Under the pieces are notes generated by a model. It saw only the letters and a program-made list of their open reading frames with translations. It was not told the DNA's origin and searched no databases. A stretch of 64,000 nucleotides of DNA, taken from Acidimicrobiaceae bacterium. Its GTDB lineage: Bacteria > Actinomycetota > Acidimicrobiia > Acidimicrobiales > UBA8190. This document shows, piece by piece, positions 37,139-58,171 of the stretch (within the stretch, counting starts at the first letter, position 1; each line of letters begins with the position of its first letter). The DNA lies in assembly GCA_003151475.1 (NCBI GenBank), contig PLXQ01000017.1:1-64000 (forward strand). The letters are read 5' to 3'. A program made the translations under genes and the position numbers.

Positions 37139-37657
37139 ATGCGGGAAGCTCTGGGCTGGACCACTACCATCGCTGCCGTGGACATGCTCTCTCTCTCGGC
37201 CCACCTTCCCGAAATTGAGCTCGACCCGGGCGAAACCGTCGTGCAAGAGGGCGGTCCGAGCGGTGCCATCTGGGTCCTCGTCTCGGGCGCCCTCCGGGTT
37301 CGCAAGGGTGACGTGACGGTGAACACGATCACCCTGCCCGGGGCACTGGTGGGCGAGATGTCGGTGCTTCTCGGGACCGACCACGGGGCGACGGTCGAGG
37401 CCACGGTTCCGAGCCGGCTTCGTCGGGCCGACGACGGCCCTGCTCTACTGACCAGGGACCCTGCCATCACCAAGTTGGTGGCCGTCGGATTGGCCGAACG
37501 GCTCAACTACGTCACCACCTACCTGGCCGATTTGAAGCTTCAGTACGGCGACACACCTGGCCTCTCGATGGTGTCTGACGTCCTGAGTGAGTTGGCGCAG
37601 CGACAAGGGCCCGCCGCTCGCCCCGGATCCGCTCGCGACCCCGAACCGGAGTACTGA
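37139..37657 (+). CDS. Cyclic nucleotide-binding (CRP-like effector) domain protein
   Basis: A 172-residue protein built on a CNB beta-roll: LDPGETVVQEGGPSGAIWVL (about 29-48), then VSGALRVRKGDVTVNTI and the phosphate-binding-cassette region GALVGEMSVLLG (68-79). The G-E-M in that cassette suits ligand binding, although the following R-x-A-T/A element reads HGATVEA, so cAMP binding is uncertain. There is no helix-turn-helix, so it is not a DNA-binding CRP. Start ATG 37139; ATG 37184 is an alternative nearer the domain. A similar protein lies at 52161 next to a cyclase gene. Confidence 0.8.
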   Translation: MREALGWTTTIAAVDMLSLSAHLPEIELDPGETVVQEGGPSGAIWVLVSGALRVRKGDVTVNTITLPGALVGEMSVLLGTDHGATVEATVPSRLRRADDGPALLTRDPAITKLVAVGLAERLNYVTTYLADLKLQYGDTPGLSMVSDVLSELAQRQGPAARPGSARDPEPEY

Positions 37658-39134: not shown

Positions 39135-42100
39135 ATGACGCCGACTCGAGGTAACGGCGGTCTGGCGCGCCTTGGTACCCGGCTGACTCTCGTGGCCATG
39201 GTCGGGGCCGGGGCCCTGTTGGTGCAGAGCCCCACAGCTCTCGCCGGCCCCTCCCCCTGTGGCACGCACGGCGTGCTGACGACGGCGGGCTCGACGGCAA
39301 CGTGCACCTACACCACGCAAGGTGAAAACACCTTCACCGTGCCGGCCAACGTGACGAGCGTGAGCATCAAGGCCGTCGGCGCGTCCGGTCTGCCGGGCCT
39401 ACCGGGCGGGGCTGGTGGCGCCGGCGCCACCGTGGCCTCGACTGTGGCTATCCCGACCAGCCAGAGCACTCTGTACGTTGAGGTCGACACGGGCAGTGGC
39501 GTCGGTGGCTTGGCTCCGGCGTCAGGTGGGACCGGAGGTGGCGCTTCCGACGTCCGCACGCAGCCGGCTAGCAGCGGTGGCTTGACGGCGGGATCCAGTG
39601 ACCCGCGCCTGATCGTCGCTGGTGGTGGTGGCGGCGGTGGCGGGGGTGGCGGGGGTAATAGCTTCTTCGGAACGGGTGGCGTCGGCGGATCGGCGGGCCT
39701 TCCCAGCGTCAATGGCGCTGGTGGCGGTTCCTGTGCGCAAGCGCCGGGGGGAACCGGTGGAACCGGCGCCGGTGGCGGCGCGGCCTGCGGCGACGGGAGC
39801 GCAGGCACGCCAGGTGCCGGAGGCGTCGGTGGCACCGGCCTGCCGTTCGGTAACGGTGGCGACGGGGGTGGCGGGGGTGGCGGCGGCTACGTCGGTGGTG
39901 GCGGGGGTGGGGGTGACCCCACGGGCACCAGCGGTGGTGGTGGCGGTGGCTCGAGCTTCTCCGGCGGAACGGGCACCACGATTGCCACGGACGCCACCGG
40001 TGTCCCGCTGATCGCCATCAGCTGGGTCCCCACGTCGACGGCGTCCCCTACCGGCGCCACCGTCTATGTCGCCAACCAGGTAAGTGCGAATGTCCTTCCC
40101 GTCGATGAGATCACGAATATCGCCGGCATCCCCACTCCCAGTGGCGGGTCGCCCATCGACATCTCGATTACCGGCGATGGCAGCACCGCCTGGGTGGCCG
40201 AGTCCTCCCCCGATGCCATCCACCCCATCAATCTGGCCACCGACACGGCTGGATCACCGATCTCCATCCCGGCAACCTCCCCCCTGGCCACCCTCGTGGT
40301 GACGAGCGACGGCACGACGGTGTACGTGGCTGACCAAAGCGGCTCCATCTATGCCGTGGACACGGCCGCGTCTTCCGTCTCTCTGTTCGCCAACGTGGAT
40401 TACACCGACATCGAACGGATGGTGCTCGCCCCGGACGGCTCCAACCTCTATGTGGTCAGCCGAGATCCGCAGAGCTCCGCCGGTGAGGTGTCTGACATCG
40501 CGCTCTCCGTAGGCGGTGAGAATGCCAATACGGTCCCGGTCTCGTTCCCCTCGGACCTGGCCATCAGCCCCGACGGGAGCCTCCTCTACGTCCTGAGCAG
40601 CAGTTGGCAGATCGACGTCATCGGCGCCGTGGGGACCGACGAAGGGTTCACTCAAACACGGACCATCTCTTTGCCGTCCACTGGCGTGGGCAATCCCTCG
40701 GAGATCGCCGTGTCACCCGACGGGGCGAGCGCCTACGTATCGGTCCCGGCCACAAACGGGCCGTCCGACCCCGGCACGATCGACGTCGTGGATCTCAGCG
40801 GCGGCGGTACCGAAGCCGTGGTGGGGGTCGGAATCGACCCCCTGGGCATTGCTGCAACACCCGACGGCGCCTACGTCTATGTCACCAACGAGGTCGACAA
40901 CACCCTCGACAAGATCGACGTGACAACGGACACCGTGGTGAAGACCATCGCCGTCGGAAACCAACCGGGTGCCCTGGCCATCGGCCCGGCGGCATCGTCG
41001 AGCGTGACCGCCTCGTTGTCCGCCGGGTCTCCCACCGTGGCCTCGGTGAACGCTGTGCCCGAGTCGGCACTCCCGGCCGCCGCGGTGGAGGGCGGCGCCT
41101 CGCCGGCCGGCTCCGGCAACGCCGCTTCGGCGCCCTTGCGGTCCATTCCCCTACGGTCGATCTCCCTCGGCTCCATCCCCCTGCGGTCGATCCCCCTGCG
41201 GTCGATCCCCCTGCGGTCCATCCCGGCCGCCGCCCGGGCCTTGTCGACCACGCTGCTGTCGAACCTGCCCCTTGAGTACCCACCCGGTTGCTCGGGCACC
41301 TCGTGTACCGGATGGTCGGGCGTGTTGGCGGGCACGGCGCTGGCCATCAATCCGCTCCAATCCACTTCTCTGGCCGACGTCCTGGCCGACCCGACCGCAT
41401 CGGCGCGCTTCGCGTCGGTGCCTCTGAGCGGTCTCGATGTCTCGAGCACGGCGCTGGCCTCACTACCGCTGGCGGCGGTCGCCCTGGCCGGGACGCCTCT
41501 GCGCTCCATTCCCCTACCCGGGGCGGGCGCCTCCGACAGCGATCGCCTGACGGCGTGGTGCACCCAGCTGGCCAGTATCGGGTTCGACTGCGCAAGCGAC
41601 TTCGGCATCAATCCCAGCGATCCGTCCACCGCGGAGAACGTCGACCTGCTCGCCCTCAGCCTCGCCGGAGTGCCATTGCGGTCGATCCCCTTGCGGTCCA
41701 TCGACCTGACATCGATCGATCTGACGTCCTCGCCCCTGGCCTCTTTACCGCTTCGCTCCATCACCCTGAGCAGCACGTCTCTGGGGTCGATCCCGCTGCG
41801 GTCGATCCCCTTGCGCTCGATCCCGCTGGGCGCCACCCCGCTACGGTCCATCGGCAACCTGTCGTCGGTCATCGACTGCACCCTGGTCGACTGCTCGACC
41901 GCGACGATCAGCGACGCCGTCACCGCCGGCGCCATTTTGTCCACCGCCACTCTGGCGCAACTGGCGACGCTCGACAGCACCGCGCTGGGATCGATTCCCC
42001 TCTCGTCGATCGACATGACGTCGAGCCCCCTGCGGTCGATCCCGCTGCGGTCCATCGACCTCACCTCGAGCCCGCTGCGGTCGATCCCGCTGCGGTCGAT

Positions 42101-45100
42101 CCCCTTGCGATCGATCCCTCTGGGCTCCATCCCGCTACGGTCCATCGGCAACCTGTCGTCGGTCATCGACTGCACCTTGGTCGACTGCTCGAGCGCAACA
42201 CTGGGTGACGCCGAAGCGGCTAACGCCGTGCTTCCCACCGCCACCTTGGCTCAGTTGACCACGCTCGACAGCGTCGCTCTCGGTTCGGTCCCTCTGCGGT
42301 CGATCGACCTCACGACCAGTCCCCTGCGGTCGATCCCCCTGCGATCCATCGGCACCCTCTCGTCGGTGGTCGACTGCACCAAGGTGGACTGCTCGGACAC
42401 GACCACGGCCACCCTCGGTGACGCGGCGGCGGCCAACGCCATCTTGGCCACCGCCTCACTGAACGACCTGGGCGCCTTCCTGGGCACCGCTCTCGGCGAC
42501 CTCGGCACCTACGGCCTCACCACCCTGGCCGATCTCGGGGCCTTCCTGGGAACGACGGTCGGACAACTCCTGGCCGGCATCAACAGCGCAGTCCCGGGCT
42601 TCCCGACTTTGACCCTGAGCGACCTCCTGGCCGGTCTCACGCCTCCGACGTCGTACCCGTGGCAGTCGGTCGACCTCACCACGATCCCGCTAGCCCAGTT
42701 CGAGAGCTCAGGGGGAACCGACACCTACACAGCCGCTCTCACCGTCAACGGGTCTTCGCCGACTCCGGTGAAGGTGACACTAACGCTGCCGGCCGGTTTC
42801 GCCTACCTCGCCGGTAGCGCCACCCTCGACGGAGGAGCGCTGCCTGATCCGGCGTCGACATCGTCACCTCTCGTGTGGGATCCCACAGTCAGCCCCGGAG
42901 CCCACACCCTGTCCGTGCATGTGGCGGCAGGCATCGGCCTCGGACCCGCCACGGCGCGTTTGACGGCACAGATCGGCACCAGCACGGCCGTCACCTCGTC
43001 GACCACGGTGACGGTGATCGACGGCCTGGACCCGAACAGCACACCAGCGTCGGCGTCTCCTTTGGCCACGGACAGCCTCAATCTCGGCTACCTCACCTCC
43101 GCCGGAGACCAAGACTTCTGGTCGGTTTCGGTGAGCCAGGGCGAGGAACTGGCCTTGTCACTGTCGAACCTTCCTGCCGACTACGACCTCACCCTGTTCG
43201 CGCCGAGCGGTCAGCAGCTACAGGGCGCGCCGGTCCAGCAGGCACCGGGCGTCACCGACGCGCCGCCGTCGCTCACCACTGAGCCCCAACCGGTGCCGGG
43301 AGGAAACGACGTCCCCACCGCGCCGCCTGCCGGCTACCAGCTCTACGCCCAGTCGAACAACCGGGGGACCGACGACGAGACCATCCAGACAACCCCACTC
43401 GACGCCGGCACCTACCTGATCCAAATCACCGGGTACAACGGGGCGTCGAGCCCCCAGCCGTATCTGCTGCGTTCGACGGCGGTGTCGTCGGGGGCGACAA
43501 CGACGTGCCCCGCCATCACCTACCCGAACCCGTTGCCGGCGGCGGCGGCGGCACCGACAATCGCCGCCGGAACGAACACGTTGTTCCTCGTGGACACGCA
43601 GCGACTGCGGGCCGCCTACGGCGACACGGCCGAAAGCCAGGTCATGTCCGCCCTAACGGCTGTGGCCGGCGACAGCGTCGACGGGGTGACGGGAGCGATC
43701 CTTCCCGTGGACAGCAGCAGCGCCGTCCAGAGCGCCTACAGCAGGTGGAACGACGGAGCCCATGCCAATCCCTGTTCCGTGGAGGCGGCCAACGGCGTGG
43801 TGACGGCCATCTCGGCGCTCGTCGACCAGGTCCGCCTCGCCCATCCGAACATCACCAATCTCGTCATCGTGGGCGCCGACGACCAGATCCCGTTCGCCCG
43901 GATCGCCGACGGGGCCACCCAGTCGAACGAACGCGACTACGCGGCGAGCACCTTCCCGGGCGAGAGCAACGTGCTGGCCAACACATTGGCCCAAGGTTTC
44001 TACATGAGTGACGACCCCTACAGCGCCACTCAGCCCCTGGCCGTGGGCAGCGCCACTCTCTACACTCCCCAGCTGGCCGTCGGCCGCCTGGTGGAAAACC
44101 CCACCCAGATCGTCGGGGCCCTCAACCGCTTTGTCTCGAGCCACGGCGTTCTGGACTCCTCGGCGGCACTTTCCACCGGCTACTCGTTTCTCACCTCGGG
44201 CGCCCAGCTGGTGGCGGCCAATCTGTCCAAGGTCAGCGGCCGCAACGTGGCCGACCTCATCAATGGATCTTGGACCCACGCACAGCTCAATCAGGCCCTC
44301 ACAGCCACACCCGTCCCCGGTCTCGACAGCATCAATGCCCATTTCGACTACTCGCGTGCACTCCCTGCCCTCGGAAACACCACCGGCGATCAGAGCGATC
44401 TGTTCACCACCACGGACATCAGGAGCGCGCCCACGAACACCTATGCGGGCCGGTTGCTCTTTTCGATGGGCTGTCACGCCGGTCTGACCGTCGACGATGC
44501 CGAAGTGGCATCGAGCGGGATCACCACGCCGGTCGACGACTGGGCCAAGACCTTCGCCGACAGTGGAGCCCTGTGGGTAGCCAACACCGGCTACGGATAC
44601 GGCGACACCGACACCGTGGCCTATTCCGCCCGTCTCATGGCCGGCTTCGCCAACAACCTCGACGGGTCCGTGAGTGTGGGAGCCGCCCTCACCGACGCCA
44701 AGCAGAGCTACGAAGCGGGCGACACCGTGCTGAGCGCCTATGACCTCAAAGCCATGATGGAGTCCACCTTCTACGGGTTGCCCATGTACCACCTGAACAG
44801 CACCCCGCCGGCGGCCACCCCACCCCCCGTCCCCCCGGTCATCCAGGGCGACCCGATCACGGGGCTGGCGTCGGCGTCGATCTCGCTGAGCCTGCCCATC
44901 GGGGCCGCTGCGGGCGACCTCGGCGTGCAGTCCACCACCGCCGGCCAGTACTACCAGGTGAACGGCTCGAATCCGTACAACGGCCAGACCCAGACAACCG
45001 AGTACCGACCGATCGAGCCGCTGGCTACCGTCGACGTGACCGAACCGTCTTCCCCGCCGGGCGCGCTGGCCCAGGTGGCCCACGGCGCACTCATCACTGC

Positions 45101-48092
45101 GCTCACTTCCACCGACGTCCATCCGATCACACCGGCCGTGGCCCAGCCCGATGTCGACTCGACGGGCAACGGCACACCGCCGGGTCTCGGTATCGACCCC
45201 TTCCCGGCCCAGCTCCAGCGGGTGGCGACCTACCAGAGCATCGGCACTGCCGGCGTCACCCAGCACCAACAGTTCGACTTCGTGGCCGGACAGTTCCTGC
45301 CCGACCCGAGCAACCCGGGACAGGGCAACCAACGGTTGTTCACCTCCGTGAACGCGTCGGTGCTGTACCAGGATCCGTCCAACACCGACTTCACCCCGGC
45401 CACCATCGAAACCACCGAGGCGTTCGTGGAGAGCGGTCGCTCCGACTTCGTCGTCAACGCCTCCGACCCGGGTGCGCCCATCAAACGGGTCCTCGTTCTG
45501 TACTCCGACGGGGCGTCTCCGGGTACCTGGACCGCCCTCGATCTCGCCTCGTCCGACGGCCAGCACTGGAGCGGCGCGGGGACGGCCACACCCAGCGGCA
45601 AGATCGCCTACTTCGTGCAAGTGGTGGACGCGGCCGGGAACGTGGCCGTGTCCTCCAACAAAGGCGCCTATTTCCCCGCCTTGGCTGTGCCCGGCGCGTC
45701 GGGCGGCATCGGAATCGACCTGGGGGGATCACCACAGGTCGGCGACTACTTCACCGGCCCGGTGACAGCCACCGTCAGTGGGCCGTCCGGCCTCAGCTTC
45801 ACCCTCGACGGCTCCCCGGCCCAACCGGTCCCGCCGGGCGGTCTGATTCCCGTCACCGGCGACGGCGCCCACCAGATCACGGTGACCGACAGCGCAGGTG
45901 ACACCGAAAGCCAGCTGATCCGTATCGATACCCTGCCGCCGGTGTTGTCCACGTCGGAAAGCCCGCCCCCGGTTGGCACCCGGCCCGGGTACCTGGCCCC
46001 GGGGGCGACCGTGAAGGTCGCCGCCACCGATGCGGGTTCGGGCGTCGCCTCGGTCACCTACAGCGAGAACGGGGGGCCCTCGATCCCGTTGGGCGCTTCG
46101 TCAGGAACGATCACCGTGGCCACCTCGGCCACCATCGTGATCACGGCGAGGGACCAAGTGGGCAACGTCGGCACCACCACGGTGGTGGCCAATGTCGACA
46201 GCGCCGCGCCAACCGCCGCTTGCACGGTCCCATCAGTCGCGTGGACGAACCACGACGTGTCGGTTGTGTGCGCCCTCTCCGACACCCAGTCGGGTCTCGC
46301 CAATCCCGAGCAGGCGACCACCACCCTCTCCACCAGCGTGCCGGCGGGGACGGCCACCGCCAGCGCCAGCACGAGCGCCGCCACTGTGTGCGACAAGGTC
46401 GGCAACTGCGGCGGGGTCGGGCCCTTCGGACCCTTCGAGGTGGACAAGAGTGCCCCGTCGGTAACGGCCCTCACGTCGATGACGCCCTCAGCGTCAGGCT
46501 TCGTCAAAGAGGGGTCGGCGCTCAACGTCTCGGGTAGCGATACCGGGTCGGGAGTGAAGACGATCACCTATCTGGCCACGGGCGCCCAAGCCGGCAGCGG
46601 CAACATATTCGCCGCCGGAGCCACCGACCCGCTCTCGGTGGCAACGTCACTGCTCCTCACGGCCCAAGGAACGACCACATTCGTATTCACGGCCACCGAC
46701 CTCGCCGGCAACGTCTCGTCTACGGCCACCGTAACGGTGAACGTCGACGCCACAGCGCCCACGGTCACGTGCGCAGTCCCGCCCGTCGCCTGGTCGGGCC
46801 ACGACGTGTCGGTGCCCTGCATCGTCACCGACGCCCTGTCGGGTCTCGCCTCTCCCTCGCAGTCGACAACCACGGTGACGACCACGGTTCCCGCCGGCAC
46901 AGCGACGGCGGCGGCGTCCACGAACACGGCGACGGTGTGTGACGAGGTCGGCAATTGCGCGACCGTGGGCCCGTTCGGCCCCTTCGAGGTGGACAAGAGT
47001 GTGCCGTCGGCGAGCGCCACCACTACCCCGGCGCCGTCGGCGTCAGGATGGGTACCAGGGACGACGATGCTCAATCTCGCAGCCACCGACACCGGCTCCG
47101 GCGTGCTGTCGATCACGTACACGCTTACGGGAGCACAGAGCGGGGGGGCCACCATTGCCGGCGCCTCGGGATCGGTGGCACTCACCACGGCCGGCACCAC
47201 GACCGTGCAAGTACACGCCACCGACAAGGTCGGCAACGTGTCGCCGACCACCACCCTGATCGTGAAGGACGACAAGCTCGGTCCCACCATCACCTGTACC
47301 CCGCCGACGTCCGCCACCTGGTCGGCGACCGATATATCGGTGCCATGCACGGCAACCGATAGCCAAGCGGGACTGTCCGCAGCATCTCCCACGCCGCAGT
47401 CGCCGTGGGGTTTCAGCTTGTCGACCAGTGTGGCGGTGGGGACAGAAACGGCCACCGCAACCACGGGCACCTTGAAGGTGTGCGACGAGGTGGGTAACTG
47501 CACGACGGCCGGTCCGTATGGGCCGTTCAAGGTAGACAAGAAGGCCCCGACCATCACCATCACCGCGCCCGTGGCGGGTTCCACCTACTTCGTGGGCCAG
47601 TCGGTGAAGGCGGCGTACACCTGCGGTGACGCCGGTTCGGGCCTGGCCTCTTGTACGGGCACGGTGACCAACGGCGCCGCCATTGCGACGAACACGGTGG
47701 GGTCCTACACCTTCACGGTGACAGCCAAGGACAAGGCCGGCAACACGGGGACGCAGACGGTGTCCTACACCGTGGCCAACAGGCTGTGCGCCGTGATCAG
47801 CCCGGCCCCGCAGTCTTCCTCGGCTGTGCTCTTCACCGTGCGGCTGTGCGACAGCCAGGGCCACAACCTGACCACCAACAAGACCGTCCTGACCGCAGCG
47901 CGGGTCGATGCCTCGGGAGCGCCGGTGTCGGTGATTCCGGATCCGAAAAACACCTTCTTCTTCGTTCCCGTCGTAAACACCGACATCTACATCCTGCAGG
48001 ACTCGAAGCTGGCTTCGGGCAGCCATATTCTCTACGTCACCGTGGCGGGCGACCCCGCCCTGCACCCGATCTCATTCACCGTGTCTCACTAG
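39135..48092 (+). CDS. Giant secreted multidomain protein: PLRSI repeats plus C25-like peptidase
   Basis: 2985 residues, ATG 39135 with a GGGGGGA site upstream. Order: signal peptide (1-37, ending A-L-A); glycine-rich domain (about 156-276); YVTN-type beta-propeller (about 306-619); PLRSI pentapeptide region (667-1072) with three inserted S-S-V-[IV]-D-C-T modules; leucine/glycine-rich helices; a DUF11-like domain (about 1194-1292); a PPC-like domain (about 1296-1446). Next is a caspase-fold peptidase resembling family C25 (about 1456-1889), with likely dyad H1736 (NAHFDYS) and C1780 (SMGCHAG). Then come OmpL47/Ig-like repeats (about 2209-2889), each with FGPFEVDK-type ends. No C-terminal anchor is visible. 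It is probably secreted or surface-held; role unknown (protease, adhesin or self-processing). Confidence 0.85.
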   Translation: MTPTRGNGGLARLGTRLTLVAMVGAGALLVQSPTALAGPSPCGTHGVLTTAGSTATCTYTTQGENTFTVPANVTSVSIKAVGASGLPGLPGGAGGAGATVASTVAIPTSQSTLYVEVDTGSGVGGLAPASGGTGGGASDVRTQPASSGGLTAGSSDPRLIVAGGGGGGGGGGGGNSFFGTGGVGGSAGLPSVNGAGGGSCAQAPGGTGGTGAGGGAACGDGSAGTPGAGGVGGTGLPFGNGGDGGGGGGGGYVGGGGGGGDPTGTSGGGGGGSSFSGGTGTTIATDATGVPLIAISWVPTSTASPTGATVYVANQVSANVLPVDEITNIAGIPTPSGGSPIDISITGDGSTAWVAESSPDAIHPINLATDTAGSPISIPATSPLATLVVTSDGTTVYVADQSGSIYAVDTAASSVSLFANVDYTDIERMVLAPDGSNLYVVSRDPQSSAGEVSDIALSVGGENANTVPVSFPSDLAISPDGSLLYVLSSSWQIDVIGAVGTDEGFTQTRTISLPSTGVGNPSEIAVSPDGASAYVSVPATNGPSDPGTIDVVDLSGGGTEAVVGVGIDPLGIAATPDGAYVYVTNEVDNTLDKIDVTTDTVVKTIAVGNQPGALAIGPAASSSVTASLSAGSPTVASVNAVPESALPAAAVEGGASPAGSGNAASAPLRSIPLRSISLGSIPLRSIPLRSIPLRSIPAAARALSTTLLSNLPLEYPPGCSGTSCTGWSGVLAGTALAINPLQSTSLADVLADPTASARFASVPLSGLDVSSTALASLPLAAVALAGTPLRSIPLPGAGASDSDRLTAWCTQLASIGFDCASDFGINPSDPSTAENVDLLALSLAGVPLRSIPLRSIDLTSIDLTSSPLASLPLRSITLSSTSLGSIPLRSIPLRSIPLGATPLRSIGNLSSVIDCTLVDCSTATISDAVTAGAILSTATLAQLATLDSTALGSIPLSSIDMTSSPLRSIPLRSIDLTSSPLRSIPLRSIPLRSIPLGSIPLRSIGNLSSVIDCTLVDCSSATLGDAEAANAVLPTATLAQLTTLDSVALGSVPLRSIDLTTSPLRSIPLRSIGTLSSVVDCTKVDCSDTTTATLGDAAAANAILATASLNDLGAFLGTALGDLGTYGLTTLADLGAFLGTTVGQLLAGINSAVPGFPTLTLSDLLAGLTPPTSYPWQSVDLTTIPLAQFESSGGTDTYTAALTVNGSSPTPVKVTLTLPAGFAYLAGSATLDGGALPDPASTSSPLVWDPTVSPGAHTLSVHVAAGIGLGPATARLTAQIGTSTAVTSSTTVTVIDGLDPNSTPASASPLATDSLNLGYLTSAGDQDFWSVSVSQGEELALSLSNLPADYDLTLFAPSGQQLQGAPVQQAPGVTDAPPSLTTEPQPVPGGNDVPTAPPAGYQLYAQSNNRGTDDETIQTTPLDAGTYLIQITGYNGASSPQPYLLRSTAVSSGATTTCPAITYPNPLPAAAAAPTIAAGTNTLFLVDTQRLRAAYGDTAESQVMSALTAVAGDSVDGVTGAILPVDSSSAVQSAYSRWNDGAHANPCSVEAANGVVTAISALVDQVRLAHPNITNLVIVGADDQIPFARIADGATQSNERDYAASTFPGESNVLANTLAQGFYMSDDPYSATQPLAVGSATLYTPQLAVGRLVENPTQIVGALNRFVSSHGVLDSSAALSTGYSFLTSGAQLVAANLSKVSGRNVADLINGSWTHAQLNQALTATPVPGLDSINAHFDYSRALPALGNTTGDQSDLFTTTDIRSAPTNTYAGRLLFSMGCHAGLTVDDAEVASSGITTPVDDWAKTFADSGALWVANTGYGYGDTDTVAYSARLMAGFANNLDGSVSVGAALTDAKQSYEAGDTVLSAYDLKAMMESTFYGLPMYHLNSTPPAATPPPVPPVIQGDPITGLASASISLSLPIGAAAGDLGVQSTTAGQYYQVNGSNPYNGQTQTTEYRPIEPLATVDVTEPSSPPGALAQVAHGALITALTSTDVHPITPAVAQPDVDSTGNGTPPGLGIDPFPAQLQRVATYQSIGTAGVTQHQQFDFVAGQFLPDPSNPGQGNQRLFTSVNASVLYQDPSNTDFTPATIETTEAFVESGRSDFVVNASDPGAPIKRVLVLYSDGASPGTWTALDLASSDGQHWSGAGTATPSGKIAYFVQVVDAAGNVAVSSNKGAYFPALAVPGASGGIGIDLGGSPQVGDYFTGPVTATVSGPSGLSFTLDGSPAQPVPPGGLIPVTGDGAHQITVTDSAGDTESQLIRIDTLPPVLSTSESPPPVGTRPGYLAPGATVKVAATDAGSGVASVTYSENGGPSIPLGASSGTITVATSATIVITARDQVGNVGTTTVVANVDSAAPTAACTVPSVAWTNHDVSVVCALSDTQSGLANPEQATTTLSTSVPAGTATASASTSAATVCDKVGNCGGVGPFGPFEVDKSAPSVTALTSMTPSASGFVKEGSALNVSGSDTGSGVKTITYLATGAQAGSGNIFAAGATDPLSVATSLLLTAQGTTTFVFTATDLAGNVSSTATVTVNVDATAPTVTCAVPPVAWSGHDVSVPCIVTDALSGLASPSQSTTTVTTTVPAGTATAAASTNTATVCDEVGNCATVGPFGPFEVDKSVPSASATTTPAPSASGWVPGTTMLNLAATDTGSGVLSITYTLTGAQSGGATIAGASGSVALTTAGTTTVQVHATDKVGNVSPTTTLIVKDDKLGPTITCTPPTSATWSATDISVPCTATDSQAGLSAASPTPQSPWGFSLSTSVAVGTETATATTGTLKVCDEVGNCTTAGPYGPFKVDKKAPTITITAPVAGSTYFVGQSVKAAYTCGDAGSGLASCTGTVTNGAAIATNTVGSYTFTVTAKDKAGNTGTQTVSYTVANRLCAVISPAPQSSSAVLFTVRLCDSQGHNLTTNKTVLTAARVDASGAPVSVIPDPKNTFFFVPVVNTDIYILQDSKLASGSHILYVTVAGDPALHPISFTVSH
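41133..42350 (+). repeat. Pentapeptide PLRSI-coding repeat region
   Basis: A 15-bp unit (roughly CTGCGGTCGATCCCC) encoding P-L-R-S-I is repeated; I count 21 exact PLRSI copies in several runs, mixed with variants such as DLTSS, SLGSI, PLGSI and PLASL. Runs are separated by copies of a module of about 50 residues containing L-S-S-V-[IV]-D-C-T-x-V-D-C-S. In the pentapeptide-repeat register, I, P, L, R, S would place Ile and Leu inside a right-handed beta-helix. Confidence 0.9.
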
Positions 48093-48122: not shown

Positions 48123-51100
48123 GTGGCAGCACCGACCCGGCTGACGCCCATGTCCGAGCGCGCAGCCGATCAATCCGAGCGGCTTCGGCCCTATGTGCCG
48201 AGACTGTCCATCGACTGGCTGCGCTCGCAAGCCGACGAGGAGCTCCAGAACATCGAAGCCACCGTGGCCTTCGTTGACGTCTCCGGCTTCACGGCCCTGA
48301 CCGAACGGCTGGCGGCGCGGGGCAAGATCGGTGCCGAGGAAGTCAGTGACCTCATCGGTGGTTGCTTCGCCGAGCTGCTCGACATCGGGTACGAGTACGG
48401 AGCTGAGCTTCTCAAGTGGGGCGGCGATGCCGCGCTGGTGATGTTCCGCGAACCGGACTCGGTGGCCCGGGCTTGTCGCGCCGCCTGGTTGATGACACGG
48501 GCCATGGAGCGCGTCGGCAGGGTCCGAACTTCCATGGGCCCCGTCACCTTGGGTATCTCCGTCGGGGTCCACCGGGGCTGTTTCAACCTCTACCTCGTGG
48601 GGGAGCACCACCGCGAGCTCGTGATAACGGGACCGGCGGCGTCGGAGACAGCTCGGATGGAGGCCATCGCCGAGTCGGGCGAAGTCGTGGTGAGTCCCCA
48701 CACGGCGGCGTCGGTGCCCACCGAGGACCTGGGTCCGGCCAAGGGGGCGGGCATCCTCCTGGTCGCGGCGCCGGAGGCGGCCGTAGCGCCGGCCCGGACC
48801 GCTCCCGATGTCGGGGGAGTCGACGTCGCCCTGTTGCTACCGCCCCCCACCCGGGCCCATCTTCTCGGCGGCGGCGAACAGGCCGAGCATCGCCACGCAG
48901 CGGTGGCCTTCGTCGAGTTCTCGGGCGTCGATGCTCTGAGCGAAACGGAGGGGCCCGAAGCGGTCACCCCGTTTCTCCGCGCCATCGTGCACCGGGCCCA
49001 GGTGGTCGCCGCCGACACCGGGGTGACATTTCACGGCACCGACATCGGCCCTGATGGCGGCAAGATCCTGCTTCTCGGCGGGGTGCCGGTCGTGCGGGGC
49101 AACGACGAGGAGCGGGTCCTGCGCGCCGCGCACGCCGTGGTGGCCGGGGGCGGGGGGAAGTTACGAGTCCGAGCCGGTGTCAACGCCGGCCGGGTCTTCA
49201 TGCACGAGACCGGGCCCCCGCACCGGCGGATCCACTCGTTCTCGGGAGACGCCGTCAATCTGGCTGCCCGGGTGATGGGAAGGGCAGAACCCGGTCAGGT
49301 CCTCGCTACTGCCGCTGTCCTCGACCGGACCAAGGTGATCCTCGCAGCCGAACCGCTCCCGCCATTCACGGTGAAGGGAAAGAGGGAGCCGGTCCAGGCC
49401 TTCGCCGTGGACCATGTGGGCGGCACCCGGTCATTTGCCGAAGCAGACCGGTTGCCGTTCGTCGGTCGGAAAAAGGAGCTTGTCTCCTTGCTCGATGCCG
49501 CTGCCGCCGCCGCCTCGGGATCCGGTGGCGTCGTCGACATCTTGGCTGGTGCGGGCATGGGGAAGTCGCGTCTGGTATCCGAGGCTTCGGCTCGCTGGAC
49601 GCTGCGGACCCTGCGTCTTGCCTGTGAGGAATATGGGCGGTCCACGCCGTACCTTCCTTTCCGCTGGTTGTTACGGGCCGTGATCGGCCTTGACGAGGAG
49701 ACCCCCTCCGACGTCGTGAAGAGCCGACTGCGTTCGGCGGTGTCCGACGCGGTCCCGACGCTCGTGCCCTGGCTCCCGCTCCTCGGTGACGTGCTCGACG
49801 TGTCTCTCCCCGCCACCGCCGAAGTGGAAGCCCTCGAACCACGATTCCTGCGTCGCAAACTGGAGGAGTCGGTCATCGCCCTGTTATCGGCGTTGCTGCC
49901 GGAACCGACCGCCATCGTCTTCGAAGATGCCCACGAGATGGACGACGCTTCCGCTGACCTCGTCCGCCGCCTCTCTCGCCTGGTCATCGATCGGCCGTGG
50001 ATGGTGGTGCTGTCCCGGCGTTCAGACGGCAATCTTCGGACGCTGTCGGAGCTCGCCGGGGTCACGACCCTCACCCTCGAGCCCCTGGACCCCGCATCCG
50101 CTTCCAAGCTCCTGGCCGGCGCCGCTGCTGATGTGGCACTGGCCGGACGCGACCGGGCCCTCATCATCGACCGGTCGGCCGGCAATCCCCTCTTCTTGCG
50201 GGAACTGGCGGGGGCCCTGCGCCATGGTGAATCGATCGACGATATGCCCACCGCCTTGGAGCAGTTGCTGGCCTCTCAGGTCGACCGCCTGGTGCCCGCT
50301 GACCGCCGGGTCCTGCGCTCGGCCGCCGTCCTCGGAGTGCGATTTGACCGGGCCATGCTGGGAGAGCTCCTGGACAACCCCGACTACGCAAGCAACGACC
50401 TGTGGCGCCGGCTCGACCCGTATGTGAACGGCGAAGGTGATGGGCAGATGCGGTTCGCCAATGCCTTGGCCCGCGACGCCGCTTATGAGGGTCTGTCTTT
50501 CAAACGTCGACGTGATCTGCACGGCCGGGCCTTGGAGGGCATCGAGCGGAGGACCTCCACTCCCGACGACCAAGCCGATCTGCTGTCGCTCCACGCGCTG
50601 CACGCCGAACGATTCGACGCGGCATGGCGCTACGCACGGGTGGCCGGGGACAGGGCGGCCGGGCTCTATGCCAACGCCGACGCGGCCACCCTGTACCGGC
50701 GCGCCCTCGACGCGGCACGCAGGCTGCGCCCCGCCGAGCGCCCCGACGTGGCTGCGGTGGCCGAGGCGCTGGGCGACGTCGCCGAGCTCGCCGGCGATTT
50801 CGAATCCGCTCGGGACGCTTACAGCCAGGCCCGCCGACTGCGCCACGATGACGAGGACCGAGCCCGCCTTCTTCGAAAGTCGGGCGTCATCCACGAACGA
50901 TTCGGCCGGTACCGCGAGGCCCTGCGCTGCTACGCCCGAGGTCGGTCCCTGCTGGTCGCCGGGGGCCGGTCAGCGACAGCGGAGGCGGCCGAACTGGCTA
51001 TCGCCTACGCCGGGGTCCGCTTCCGCCAAGGTCGATACCGTGATTGCATCTCCTGGGCCCAGACGGCGGCGGCCGAGGCGGACGGGGCCGCCCATCGATC

Positions 51101-52049
51101 GGGGTTGGCCCATGCCCTCTATCTCGAGGACATGGCCCTCTTCGACCTATCCCAGCCGTCGGGCGAACAAGGGCGCCGAGCCCTTGTCATCTTCGAAGAG
51201 CTCGGCGATCTCGTCGGTCAGGGCAATGTCCTGAACAACATGGGTATCGACGCCTACTACCAGGGACGATGGGACACCGCCCTCGAGCACTACGAGAAGT
51301 CACGGGCCGTACGCCAGAAGGCGGGCGACGTCGTCGGGGTGGCCACGCAGGAGAACAACATCGGCGAGATCCTTTCCGATCAGGGCAAGGGCTCCGACGC
51401 AGACCTGCTCTTTCAATCCGCTCGTGAGGAATGGAGGGCGGCCGACTACCGAGTCGGAGTGGCGTTGGCGACCTCGAACCTCGGGCGTCTGGCGGTGCGA
51501 TCGGGTGATTTCGCATCGGGCACCGGACACCTTCGCGATGCCCTCGACCGCTTCGAGGCGATCGGTTCCACCGTCTACGTGGCCGAGACCCAAGCCCGTC
51601 TGGCCGAGGCCCTGGTTCTGGCCGGAACGACCGAGGAAGCGGACAGGGCGGTTGCCCTGCTTCTCGAGAACATCTCGGCTCTCGACGGTGCCGACCTCCT
51701 CACCTCGGCCGCCCTGCGCCTGAAGGGGGTGGTCCGCGCCCAGGCCGGAGAGTCGCACGAGGCCCTCCTTCTCCTGGCCGACAGCGCCGAGCGGGCCCGG
51801 GCCCTCTCGGGCGATTTCGAGCTGGCTCTGTCTCTGGCCGCCCGGGCCGTGGTGGGAACGGGCGGGGCCGGCCTTGACGATGCCGAATCAGCCCTGGACG
51901 CCGCGGCGGCGTTGACCTTGTTCACGGCTCTGGGCGTGGTCGACATCCCCGTGACTTCGGCCCACGACCGCTGGCCTGCTGCCGGGGAAGCTCTCCTGCA
52001 TTCCGCCAGTCGACAAAAAGGCCGGGAGGGCTCGAGCGGCCCGGGCTGA
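48123..52049 (+). CDS. Soluble adenylyl-cyclase-like protein with tandem cyclase domains, ATPase and TPRs
   Basis: A 1308-residue cytosolic protein with the plan of mammalian sAC. Cyclase domain 1 (about 45-220) has metal aspartates D52 (FVDVSGFTAL) and D102 (LLKWGGDAALV). Cyclase domain 2 (about 260-435) has Glu in place of the first Asp (VEFSG). An AAA/NTPase domain follows with P-loop GAGMGKS (476-482) and the Walker-B-like IVFEDAHEMDD. TPR-like helices occupy about 860-1250. Domain 1 probably carries the active metal site, making cAMP or cGMP from ATP or GTP as a signal. GTG 48123; ATG 48150 is an alternative. It starts 30 bp after the giant protein and precedes a CNB protein. Confidence 0.88.
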   Translation: MAAPTRLTPMSERAADQSERLRPYVPRLSIDWLRSQADEELQNIEATVAFVDVSGFTALTERLAARGKIGAEEVSDLIGGCFAELLDIGYEYGAELLKWGGDAALVMFREPDSVARACRAAWLMTRAMERVGRVRTSMGPVTLGISVGVHRGCFNLYLVGEHHRELVITGPAASETARMEAIAESGEVVVSPHTAASVPTEDLGPAKGAGILLVAAPEAAVAPARTAPDVGGVDVALLLPPPTRAHLLGGGEQAEHRHAAVAFVEFSGVDALSETEGPEAVTPFLRAIVHRAQVVAADTGVTFHGTDIGPDGGKILLLGGVPVVRGNDEERVLRAAHAVVAGGGGKLRVRAGVNAGRVFMHETGPPHRRIHSFSGDAVNLAARVMGRAEPGQVLATAAVLDRTKVILAAEPLPPFTVKGKREPVQAFAVDHVGGTRSFAEADRLPFVGRKKELVSLLDAAAAAASGSGGVVDILAGAGMGKSRLVSEASARWTLRTLRLACEEYGRSTPYLPFRWLLRAVIGLDEETPSDVVKSRLRSAVSDAVPTLVPWLPLLGDVLDVSLPATAEVEALEPRFLRRKLEESVIALLSALLPEPTAIVFEDAHEMDDASADLVRRLSRLVIDRPWMVVLSRRSDGNLRTLSELAGVTTLTLEPLDPASASKLLAGAAADVALAGRDRALIIDRSAGNPLFLRELAGALRHGESIDDMPTALEQLLASQVDRLVPADRRVLRSAAVLGVRFDRAMLGELLDNPDYASNDLWRRLDPYVNGEGDGQMRFANALARDAAYEGLSFKRRRDLHGRALEGIERRTSTPDDQADLLSLHALHAERFDAAWRYARVAGDRAAGLYANADAATLYRRALDAARRLRPAERPDVAAVAEALGDVAELAGDFESARDAYSQARRLRHDDEDRARLLRKSGVIHERFGRYREALRCYARGRSLLVAGGRSATAEAAELAIAYAGVRFRQGRYRDCISWAQTAAAEADGAAHRSGLAHALYLEDMALFDLSQPSGEQGRRALVIFEELGDLVGQGNVLNNMGIDAYYQGRWDTALEHYEKSRAVRQKAGDVVGVATQENNIGEILSDQGKGSDADLLFQSAREEWRAADYRVGVALATSNLGRLAVRSGDFASGTGHLRDALDRFEAIGSTVYVAETQARLAEALVLAGTTEEADRAVALLLENISALDGADLLTSAALRLKGVVRAQAGESHEALLLLADSAERARALSGDFELALSLAARAVVGTGGAGLDDAESALDAAAALTLFTALGVVDIPVTSAHDRWPAAGEALLHSASRQKGREGSSGPG

Positions 52050-54925: not shown

Positions 54926-55390
54926 CGAGCCGGACACCGGCCGGGCTTATCCGGCGCCGCAAGTGTTCCCTTGGCGCCTCAGTTACTCACTCAGCTCGGG
55001 GCTAGCCCACCGCCGTCCGGTCATGGTGTGTCCAAGCATTCGGCCATATCAACGACCGAACAACGACCGAGCCACAGTCGGGTTCTCGGGAGATCTTCAT
55101 GATCCGGTCATGATTGGTTGGGCATCATGTCGTCAAAGGCGGTGAATGACGATTACTCGGTACGACCCAGGATGTTGCCACGCCCCGTATGAGGTGCAAC
55201 GCGCCCATCGCCCTGGCCTCCGCCACCAGCCGGCTCCGGCGATAGGACAACTGATCCAACGATTGAGCGGACCCACGCACGACCGTTCCTATGCGTGCTG
55301 CCCCGTCTCCCGATCCTGGGGTTCGAAACTCACAGGATCCTCACAGGCTACGTACATGGATCACTCAACCTCGCCTGGCAAGGTGACCCG
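54926..55390 (+). other. No confident gene; probable terminator and promoter region
   Basis: No open frame here has a protein-like pattern and recognisable domain. GCCGGA and TCCGGC arms just after the MerR stop (about 54930-54957) could form a terminator. The right end leads into the ferric-reductase operon. I see no RNA gene or clean -35/-10 pair. Confidence 0.45.
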
Positions 55391-56782
55391 GTGACGCCGG
55401 CTATGAAGATAACTCCTGCTCCTCGTAGCGTCACGACAGGCGACGCCCAGGTGCCCCGATCGGGCCACGCGCCTTTGCCGTGGGTCGCCGACGCCTTCGC
55501 CGCACTCGCCGGCCTTGGCCTCGCCGTGACACTGGCCCTCGTCATCACCGGTGAGACACGCGGCTCGCTGGCGGCGCCCGGTGGTTGGCTTATCGCCGGC
55601 GGCCGGTTTGCCGGATTGACGGGTGCCTACCTCATGTTGGTCTTGGTTGTCCTCATCGCCCGCCTGCCCTGGCTCGAGCGGGCCGTGGGCCAGGATCGGC
55701 TCGTCCTTTGGCACCGCCGGATCGGACCGTGGGTTCTTATCCTCATCACCGCCCACGTCGTGCTCATTACCCTCGGGTATTCCAAGCTTGCCAAGGTGGG
55801 GCCACTCCACCAGTTGTGGGTCTTTCTCAGTTCTTATCCCGACCTGCTGGCCGCCGCAGCCGGCTTCTGTCTCGTCATCATGGCCGGGGTCACGTCGATC
55901 AGGATTGCCCGTCGACGCATCAAGTACGAGACGTGGTGGGTGGTTCACCTCTATATGTATCTTGCCCTCTCGCTCGCATTCGCCCACCAGATCGTCACCG
56001 GCGGTTCGTTCATCGGCCATCCCCTGACCCGGGCCATCTGGATAACGATGTGGACAGCGACGGCGGGAATGGTCATCGTATTCCGGATTCTCCAGCCGAT
56101 CGGTCGGAGCCTTCGACACCAACTCAAGGTCTCCTTCGTCCGGGAAGAGGCACCGGGGGTATTCTCGGTCGTCTGCTCCGGGCGACGTCTCGATCGGCTG
56201 GCGGTATCGGGGGGCCAGTTCTTCCAGTGGCGATTCTTCACCAAGGAGCTGTGGTGGCACGCACACCCGTACTCGATCTCGGCGCTCCCGAGTCCTCCGT
56301 ATATCCGACTGACAGTCAAGGGTTTGGGCGATCAGAGTCGCGCCGTCTCCCAGCTCAAGCCGGGAACTCGCGTGGGCATCGAGGGACCCTACGGCGCGTT
56401 TACGCATCACGCCCGTTCTTCTGACCGAGTCGTATTGATAGGCGCCGGAGTCGGATTGACCCCACTGCGCGCTCTTCTCGAGGACCTACCGCCGTGGGTG
56501 GCGGTCTCGGTCATTGTTCGAGCGTCCACGGCGAAGGAGATCGTCCACCGCGACGAGGTCGTTGACCTCGTCGAGCAGCGAGGTGGTCGGTTCCACGAGA
56601 TTATCGGCTCGCGCGAAAAGGTCCGCTTCGATTCCCGTGTGCTCCAACGACTCGAACCCGACATCGCGAGCAGCGACGTATACGTCTGTGGTCCGGAAGG
56701 GTTTAGCAAGAGGGTCATGGTGGCGGCGCAAAAGCTCGGAGTACATCGTGACAACATCCATCACGAAGCGTTTACGTTCTAG
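55391..56782 (+). CDS. Ferric-reductase-like membrane flavoprotein (FRD/FNR type)
   Basis: A 463-residue protein. Residues about 25-250 hold six transmembrane segments with the heme-type histidines (LWHRRIGPWVLILITAHVVL and WWVVHLYMYLALSLAFAHQI). Residues 250-463 form an FAD/NAD(P)-binding ferredoxin-reductase domain, with HPYSISALPSPP (FAD), GIEGPYGAF and GAGVGLTPLRALL, ending in VCGPEGFSKRV. It would move electrons from NAD(P)H across or into the membrane. GTG 55391 (an ATG lies 12 nt on). Together with the FMN-binding protein and ApbE that follow, it forms a transmembrane electron-transfer unit. Confidence 0.9.
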   Translation: MTPAMKITPAPRSVTTGDAQVPRSGHAPLPWVADAFAALAGLGLAVTLALVITGETRGSLAAPGGWLIAGGRFAGLTGAYLMLVLVVLIARLPWLERAVGQDRLVLWHRRIGPWVLILITAHVVLITLGYSKLAKVGPLHQLWVFLSSYPDLLAAAAGFCLVIMAGVTSIRIARRRIKYETWWVVHLYMYLALSLAFAHQIVTGGSFIGHPLTRAIWITMWTATAGMVIVFRILQPIGRSLRHQLKVSFVREEAPGVFSVVCSGRRLDRLAVSGGQFFQWRFFTKELWWHAHPYSISALPSPPYIRLTVKGLGDQSRAVSQLKPGTRVGIEGPYGAFTHHARSSDRVVLIGAGVGLTPLRALLEDLPPWVAVSVIVRASTAKEIVHRDEVVDLVEQRGGRFHEIIGSREKVRFDSRVLQRLEPDIASSDVYVCGPEGFSKRVMVAAQKLGVHRDNIHHEAFTF

Positions 56783-56828
56783 GTCCTGAGGAATCGAACC
56801 CGGTGTCCATTAAATCTGAAGAATCTCG

Positions 56829-57356
56829 ATGAGACGTACGCCCATCGTGATGGCGGCCACGGCGGCAGGGCTCGCTGGCGTTCTCACTTTCCATACAAAG
56901 TCTGCCCCCGTCTCCCTCGGCGCCATTCCCGGGGCATCTGCCACCACGCGCCCTCCGACCACGACCAACGCCGGTGGATCTCCGCCGAATCAAGGCTCCT
57001 CCAGCGGGAGTTCTCCCCCCCAGGCGACCACACCGACGACGGTTCCCCCGACCACTCCGTCGACATCTCCGGCAACGACACGAAGTGCCACCGGCCCACA
57101 GGTTAACTACAGCTACGGCGTCCTTTCGGTCAAGGTCACGGCGAAGGGCAAGCAGATCACCAACATCAACATCGCCTCACTCGACGACGGTGGGAACTTT
57201 CGGTCTCAGTCCATCGATCAGCAGTCGATTCCCCTTCTCGAACAACAGGCGCTACAGGCACAGAGTGCAAATATCCAAGGCGTGTCGGGTGCGAGCTACA
57301 CGAGCGCCGGGTTCACGCAGTCACTCCAAGCGGCGCTGTCCAAGCTCGGCTTCTGA
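56829..57356 (+). CDS. Exported FMN-binding protein
   Basis: A 175-residue protein with an N-terminal signal/anchor (residues 1-22) and a long Thr/Pro/Ser-rich linker (35-88). A compact FMN-binding domain (90-175) follows, with SYGVLSVKVTAKGKQITNIN and SIPLLEQQAL. The flavinylation region is GVSGASYTSAG (151-161), where FMN is likely attached covalently to S156 or T158 by ApbE. Sitting 46 bp after the reductase and directly before apbE, it should accept electrons outside the membrane and pass them to an unknown acceptor. Confidence 0.88.
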   Translation: MRRTPIVMAATAAGLAGVLTFHTKSAPVSLGAIPGASATTRPPTTTNAGGSPPNQGSSSGSSPPQATTPTTVPPTTPSTSPATTRSATGPQVNYSYGVLSVKVTAKGKQITNINIASLDDGGNFRSQSIDQQSIPLLEQQALQAQSANIQGVSGASYTSAGFTQSLQAALSKLGF

Positions 57357-58171
57357 TGACATCCATCCTCTCCACCGTCGGTGAATTGCCCGACGAAGCC
57401 CACGCGATCCATCACCTCGAGCCCGTGATGGGCACCGTAGTGACCATCGACGTCTACGCCAGAGAAGGCATGAGACCCCCCGAGATCACTCTCGGTCTGG
57501 CCCGGGCGCGTGCCACGCTCCGGCGCGCCGACGCCGTTTTCAGCACCTGGAAGGTGGACAGCCCGATGAGTCGTCTGCGCCGGGGGGAGATCACCTGTGA
57601 GGAAGCCCCGGCCGAGGTGGCCTTAGTCCTCGGGCAGTGTGCGATCGCACGCGAGATGTCTCGCGGGTGGTTCGACCCTTGGGCGATGCCTGGGGGTCTC
57701 GACCCGACGGGATACGTGAAGGGATGGGCCGCCCAGCGTGCCCTCACCGCCCTTGCCTCAAGCGGGATGACCGGTGCGATGGTCAACGCTGCCGGAGACA
57801 TCGCCAGTTTCGGGGGTCCCGAGCCCGCCACGCAGTTCAGGATCGGCATCGTCGACCCCTTTGCACGGGGCCAACTGGCCTGTGTCGTCGAGCTCGCCGG
57901 AGCGCTGGCGACATCGGGCAATTACGAGCGCGGCAATCATCTGATCGATCCCCGGACGGGTCGGCCGGCGACTTGCGTCGCCTCAGCCAGCGTCAGTGGC
58001 CCCGACCTCGGTCTCGCCGACGCCCTCGCCACAGCTGTGGCCGTCGCAGGGGAGGCCGCCCTGGACACGATCTCCGCTCTCGATGACTACGAGGCGCTCA
58101 TTATCACTCTCGATGGCAACTGGAGATGGACGGAAGGTTTTCCGTTTGCGTCTCCAGATGCGTCGTCATAA
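57356..58171 (+). CDS. apbE: FAD:protein FMN transferase (ApbE)
   Basis: A 271-residue ApbE-type flavin transferase. Family elements: LEPVMGTVVTIDVY (about 21-34), FDPWAMPGGLDPTGYVKGWA (about 102-121), MVNAAGDIASFGG (about 141-153) and NYERGNHLIDPRTG (about 184-197). It transfers FMN from FAD to a Ser/Thr of flavoproteins. No signal peptide is evident, which is odd because the target domain is outside; it may act before export. ATG overlaps the stop of the FMN-binding gene (TGATG), and that protein is its obvious substrate. Confidence 0.92.
   Translation: MTSILSTVGELPDEAHAIHHLEPVMGTVVTIDVYAREGMRPPEITLGLARARATLRRADAVFSTWKVDSPMSRLRRGEITCEEAPAEVALVLGQCAIAREMSRGWFDPWAMPGGLDPTGYVKGWAAQRALTALASSGMTGAMVNAAGDIASFGGPEPATQFRIGIVDPFARGQLACVVELAGALATSGNYERGNHLIDPRTGRPATCVASASVSGPDLGLADALATAVAVAGEAALDTISALDDYEALIITLDGNWRWTEGFPFASPDASS

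Follow-up and report, generated by a model that had tools for sequence, protein, structure and literature searches.

In the window, the 64,000-nucleotide stretch of DNA that was analyzed as a whole, a gene for a giant protein with an array of exactly repeated short words and a peptidase C25-like domain is followed by a gene for a class III cyclase with AAA and TPR domains (Table 1). In the family to which this pair belongs, the exact words are under constraint at the protein level and switch between relatives, the two genes are linked near-obligately, and the catalytic residues are intact in both partners. We tentatively read the giant and its neighbor as a module of a polyprotein pheromone and its TPR-cyclase receptor, with slightly less than even confidence.

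Table 1. Features of the giant gene and its partner gene, in nucleotide positions of the window.
Feature	Positions	Strand	Basis or remark
Giant word-array/C25-like protein, 2985 aa, predicted secreted	39135..48092	+	ATG start, open reading frame
Predicted signal peptide, about residues 1-38	39135..39248	+	Hydrophobicity only, and sequence
Gly-rich N-terminal region	39324..40034	+	By eye, borders approximate
YVTN-type beta-propeller, about residues 310-620	40062..40994	+	Profile and PDB matches
Word array, residues 667-1072	41133..42350	+	21 exact PLRSI counted
TLGDA/LGDL-rich segment, conserved between members	42351..42719	+	
PPC domain, residues 1325-1433	43107..43433	+	Profile match
C25-like caspase-fold peptidase domain, about residues 1476-1905	43560..44849	+	Profile, AlphaFold2, Foldseek
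Predicted catalytic His1736 codon	44340..44342	+	Invariant, 43/43
Predicted catalytic Cys1780 codon	44472..44474	+	Invariant, 43/43
OmpL47/Ig-like repeats, residues 2209-2880	45759..47774	+	Profile matches
Partner: 1308-aa class III cyclase (C1+C2)-AAA-TPR, proposed receptor	48123..52049	+	
TPR region of partner, residues 852-1067	50676..51323	+	
Asp1008 codon of partner	51144..51146	+	TPR column covarying with basic words

The preliminary description had seen in the giant an ordered chain of signal peptide, Gly-rich region, beta-propeller, PLRSI repeats, PPC domain, C25-like peptidase and Ig-like repeats, and these parts were found in that order. In profile searches with the window protein, the propeller was matched by TIGR02276 (1.5e-8) and PDB 1l0q (6.9e-26), the OmpL47/Ig-like repeats gave a match of 1e-29, and the match to the PPC domain (6e-5) was slightly under the cut-off of Pfam. 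At least 21 exact PLRSI repeats had been claimed and the count is exactly 21, a repetition far beyond chance, and variable spacer pentads and folded, conserved segments lie among the words. The claim of secretion agrees with the hydrophobic, signal-peptide-like N-terminus, and most of the complete giants have hydrophobic N-terminal segments by a crude hydrophobicity measure. RTX-like GGxGxD repeats were seen at the C-terminal end of the giants in loci L033, L038 and L039, as compared to the Ig-like tail of the window protein. Elsewhere in the window (55295-58168, + strand), a gene for a ferric-reductase-like membrane protein is followed by an ApbE-family gene.

Homologs of the giant were identified in 26 of 395 genomes of the class, 28 of 397 genomes of the order and 7 of 396 genomes across the phylum, samples that overlap and include the window's own genome. 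Family-level searches added further homologs, and extra sampling around G090 and G243 (order) and G668 (class) recovered no new members. In total, about 65 homologous loci were read, in which the open frames of the giants span about 1400-5100 aa where complete. The co-occurrence of the repeat with a C25 domain was confirmed in dozens of Actinomycetota genomes, and literature searches retrieved no description of this combination or of a word/cyclase system, consistent with the preliminary description, which did not recognize it as a described family. Protein-level exactness, species-specific word switching and a near-obligate cyclase-AAA-TPR partner gene go beyond that first reading.

The C25-like peptidase domain had been claimed from the sequence of the window protein, and the claim held up. 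The Pfam C25 profile, PF01364, matched 12 of the 22 family members searched (best match 5.2e-10), and it matched neither the window protein itself nor any protein in a search of the window's own genome. A PDB profile search with query A1 gave no peptidase match, and the gingipains were found by fold comparison only: the AlphaFold2 model of the window domain (pLDDT 82, pTM 0.85) was closest in Foldseek to the gingipains RgpB (3.3e-10, TM about 0.5) and Kgp. The His/Cys dyad is invariant in all of the 43 members compared. On profile, fold and dyad, the window domain is classified as C25-like, and it may be proteolytically active. The giants are similar to peptidase C25 in sequence profile, fold and Cys/His residues, but their subfamily is largely missed by Pfam and their domain is combined with a PPC domain and word arrays. 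A Gly comes after the His in the usual clan CD motif, whereas none follows the predicted catalytic His of the giants.

Nearly every member with a complete N-terminus contains an exact-word array before or inside the PPC domain, with 9-54 exact copies per giant. The word differs by protein and includes PLRSI, PLSSI, PLGAI, GVGHT, QLRQV, PIANL, PLNAF, PISSL, PLAAV, PLSAI, PFSAI, PLRGV, PIRST, PVSSI, QLGAI, PLGAV, PSAFS, PSVFS, PIRFS, PLRSV, PMRST, ALRSI, GLRTF, PLARV, LPSGT and others. A period of five is not universal, as demonstrated by periods of 6, 8 and 11-12 in L051, L169, L170, L101 and L106, with words such as SLLNSI and AVLKQI (period 6) and SLSFRGSG (period 8), and with the period of 11-12 in L101 and L106. 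The words are mostly directly tandem. Single words are also located in the PPC loop of L032, L033, L043, L044 and L095, and whole arrays lie inside this loop in other subfamilies; after the start of the C25 domain, no words were found in the members checked.

Pentads in register with the array are bimodal, being either exact words or spacers at least three residues away, with few intermediates. In L038, for example, 53 pentads are exact, none is at a distance of 1-2 and 61 are at a distance of 3 or more. Because words and spacers were separated by this same rule of exactness and distance, the near-zero pN inside words is partly true by definition, and the finding is the bimodality of the pentads rather than the low pN. 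At the DNA level, the 21 copies of PLRSI in the window occur in 15 different versions and the PISSL copies, of which 53 of 53 are exact, in 43, with TCN and AGY serine codons mixed at both serine positions. Given such scrambling of synonymous codons, DNA homogenization is rejected as the cause of the exact words, although the arrays of L001, L040 and the window seem to have expanded more recently.

We also compared the words of relatives at equal distance. The C25 domains of L038, L090 and L039 are at equal distances from one another (71-72%). In L038 and L090, which share the word PISSL, 49 aligned words are kept, 245 aligned residues belong to words that are exact in both giants and just 19 to words of one giant only, and the spacers are 62% identical. 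L039, which has PLAAV, and L090 are only 21% identical in the aligned words, as compared to 47% in the spacers. L032 and L033, both with PLGAI, behave in the same manner as L038 and L090 (185 versus 23 residues; spacers 62%). Among relatives with equally close C25 domains, either the word is retained or almost every copy of it is replaced, and the spacers change less. Apparent switches in progress were seen in L047 (24 PLGAV and 11 PLSAV) and L171 (8 PLASI and 7 PLSSI). Since the words are kept or switched in concert, we infer a reader of the word outside the array. Whether or not the mechanism proposed below is right, the replacement in concert of words that are exact at the protein level without homogenization of the DNA is a pattern that needs explanation.

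The candidate reader is the neighboring cyclase. A homolog of the partner adjoins the giant in 48 of 51 resolvable loci, all of them distinct, of which two (L107 and L165) show gaps with a broken frame; 14 further loci end at contig edges. The partner occurs in all four orientations, that is, upstream or downstream and on the same or the opposite strand. The three giants without an adjacent partner (L045, L092 and L122) count against the signaling reading. In 12 genomes searched with the partner, the neighbor of each giant was among the best matches of that genome. G157 and G1194 contain two giants that differ in their word, and each giant has a cyclase of its own; in G521, the diverged giants L092 and L093 share the word PIRFS on different contigs, with one neighboring cyclase. 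In L033, partner-type cyclase genes were observed on both sides of the giant gene.

The open frames of the partners span about 1220-1620 aa, and the TPR repeats of the window partner match PF13424 (5.8e-26). The metal-binding Asp pair in C1 (Asp52 and Asp102) and the transition-state residues in C2 (Asn379 and Arg383) of class III cyclases are present in all of 43 partners, as is the Walker Lys481. The partners appear to be cytosolic, being predicted to lack a signal peptide and, in most cases, a membrane helix. An open reading frame with a cyclic-nucleotide-binding domain (PF00027, 5.8e-11) is located a short distance upstream of the module in the window, at 37139-37654 (+ strand), with weak homologs inside loci L097, L050, L103 and L049. 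It is a possible output partner.

In 22 pairs, four TPR columns had acidic residues in association with an Arg-containing word (p<0.005), and none of 2000 label permutations gave as many columns. Columns outside the TPR domain behaved as expected by chance, and C25 columns showed no association of acid with basic words comparable to that of the TPR domain. The covariation was predicted in advance of the retrieval of new members, a group that also includes some loci retrieved earlier but outside the set of 22 pairs. These members were acidic at the best column, Asp1008 (alignment position 1018), in 7 of 8 cases with basic words as compared to 1 of 14 others (p 3.5e-4). The criterion was widened from an Arg in the third position to an Arg or Lys anywhere in the word once the new words had been seen, which weakens the pre-stated prediction. 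In the strict form, the sole clear new case, L158, failed. In the combined set, the column is acidic in 12 of 15 members with Arg or Lys in the word and in 1 of 29 others, the exceptions being L035, L093 and L158, which have a basic word but not the acid, and L101, which has the acid but a word that is not basic. For L107, a Glu at this column was recorded while the word was unknown, and PIYRL was found later in another frame. The PIYRL array and the C25 domain of this locus are in different reading frames, reflecting a frameshift, a split gene or a sequencing error.

After tree correction, five independent contrasts had support, of which about 2.5 were concordant and none was discordant, a result that is not significant. 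An unrelated control class reached 3e-5 as compared to 6.9e-7 at the best column, and column 826 replicated poorly. A Mantel comparison of word and cyclase similarity over the whole set was null, and that of the word and the TPR part gave a weak correlation (p 0.03). A position of residue 1008 on the concave face of the TPR domain (PMC1261162) is not claimed, since the register of the repeats is ambiguous. The charge covariation, with its limited phylogenetic independence, is suggestive of a TPR domain that reads the word.

In the proposed module, the product of the giant gene would be a polyprotein that is secreted and presents its word, here PLRSI, in many exact copies. The word or short multiples of it would be freed by proteolysis, for which the C25-like domain of the polyprotein itself is a possible enzyme. 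Cells would take the freed words up again, and binding to the TPR domain of the matching cyclase-AAA-TPR protein would change cyclic nucleotide output. The steps of release, import, binding and cyclase activation are what we infer from the gene pair. The tandem words have neither spacers nor a common cleavage residue, which counts against this reading.

The exact words and their concerted switching require only some co-evolving reader, and the giants are large and predicted to be secreted, with Ig-like or RTX tails. In surface recognition, with variants such as self-assembly, adhesion or kin recognition, the intact array could for these reasons bind multivalently to an extracellular partner that co-evolves with it, and the cyclase would only regulate the system. 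This leaves the acidic TPR column in members with basic words and the near-obligate linkage in four orientations unexplained, and we consider it unlikely. The apparently cytosolic partner and all of the word/TPR covariation also fit with a checkpoint in which the TPR cyclase binds the unsecreted giant via its words and reports or gates export, in which case neither release nor import would occur. Such a checkpoint explains neither the conserved peptidase dyad nor the dozens of word copies, and seems improbable.

No more credible is the model of the preliminary description, a rigid beta-helix that holds the protease, in which the words would build a regular beta-solenoid of the pentapeptide-repeat (Rfr) type and keep the protease at a distance from the cell. 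A solenoid is possible, given weak matches to designed and natural pentapeptide proteins (4yfo and 2j8k) and to NCBIfam penta_Alr5209 and spacers of which some look like canonical DLSGT pentads. In the AlphaFold2 models, however, the word stretches were non-beta with pLDDT below 50, and Foldseek found no match to their fold. The other periods and the isolated words in the PPC loop, which a solenoid would not predict, argue that solenoid geometry is not the constraint, and the spacers tolerate variation that the words do not. The model of a solenoid alone is weakened by these results. That the word is a cleavage site or pseudosubstrate of the C25 domain on the same chain and co-evolves with its pocket is very improbable, in spite of a weak correlation of word and C25 given the non-TPR cyclase part (p 0.04), considering that same-word members of the L038, L090 and L039 triad have no extra C25 similarity, that no C25 acid column is comparable to the TPR column and that the words have no common P1 residue.

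The pheromone-receptor reading would imply a type of peptide signaling not previously described in Actinomycetota, with a polyprotein that carries a caspase-fold peptidase and would release dozens of identical words of five to twelve residues, an sAC-like TPR reader and co-switching of the two, a claim that we make with more reserve. If true, it adds peptide signals to a phylum for which no systems of this kind are described, links peptides directly to cyclic nucleotide output, and provides dozens of natural word/receptor pairs for the study of signal-receptor co-evolution.

The exact multi-copy words, concerted switching, predicted secretion, conserved peptidase and adjacent, apparently cytosolic TPR protein give the module its likeness to RRNPP systems (RRNPPA; Rap-Phr, PlcR-PapR, AimR-AimP), in which a unit consists of a secreted precursor and an adjacent TPR receptor (PMC10075063). 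There, precursors of 10-100 aa are secreted by Sec and the mature peptide binds the TPR domain of a receptor of 250-500 aa (PMC10075063), and some Phr precursors contain repeated pheromone copies, up to 8 (PMC11343458, PMC10075063). The giant/cyclase pair shares the gene adjacency, the TPR repeats in the partner and the short allele-specific words. The precursor of 1400-5100 aa, with a peptidase of its own and 9-54 exact word copies, and the partner of about 1250-1400 aa (about 1220-1620 aa over all open frames), with cyclase and AAA domains, differ in size from those of RRNPP systems, and for this reason the pair is not filed as RRNPP. It is also found in Actinomycetota, for which signals are described as typically small molecules (PMC10075063).

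Pentapeptide-repeat proteins have in common with most giants a period of five and a hydrophobic center, but the words of the giants are exact rather than degenerate, occur with other periods and are not predicted to form a solenoid. Soluble adenylyl cyclases of the ADCY10 type have the order C1-C2-NTPase-TPR, with catalytic residues split between C1 and C2. The partner has the same domain order and split, but it is bacterial and linked to a word-array gene, and its proposed ligand is a peptide. Many identical peptides in one chain are also known from eukaryotic multi-copy precursors, such as those of yeast mating pheromone and neuropeptides (cf. PMC5850478), as compared to which the giants are bacterial, have words that are mostly directly tandem, and contain a candidate processing enzyme in the same chain.
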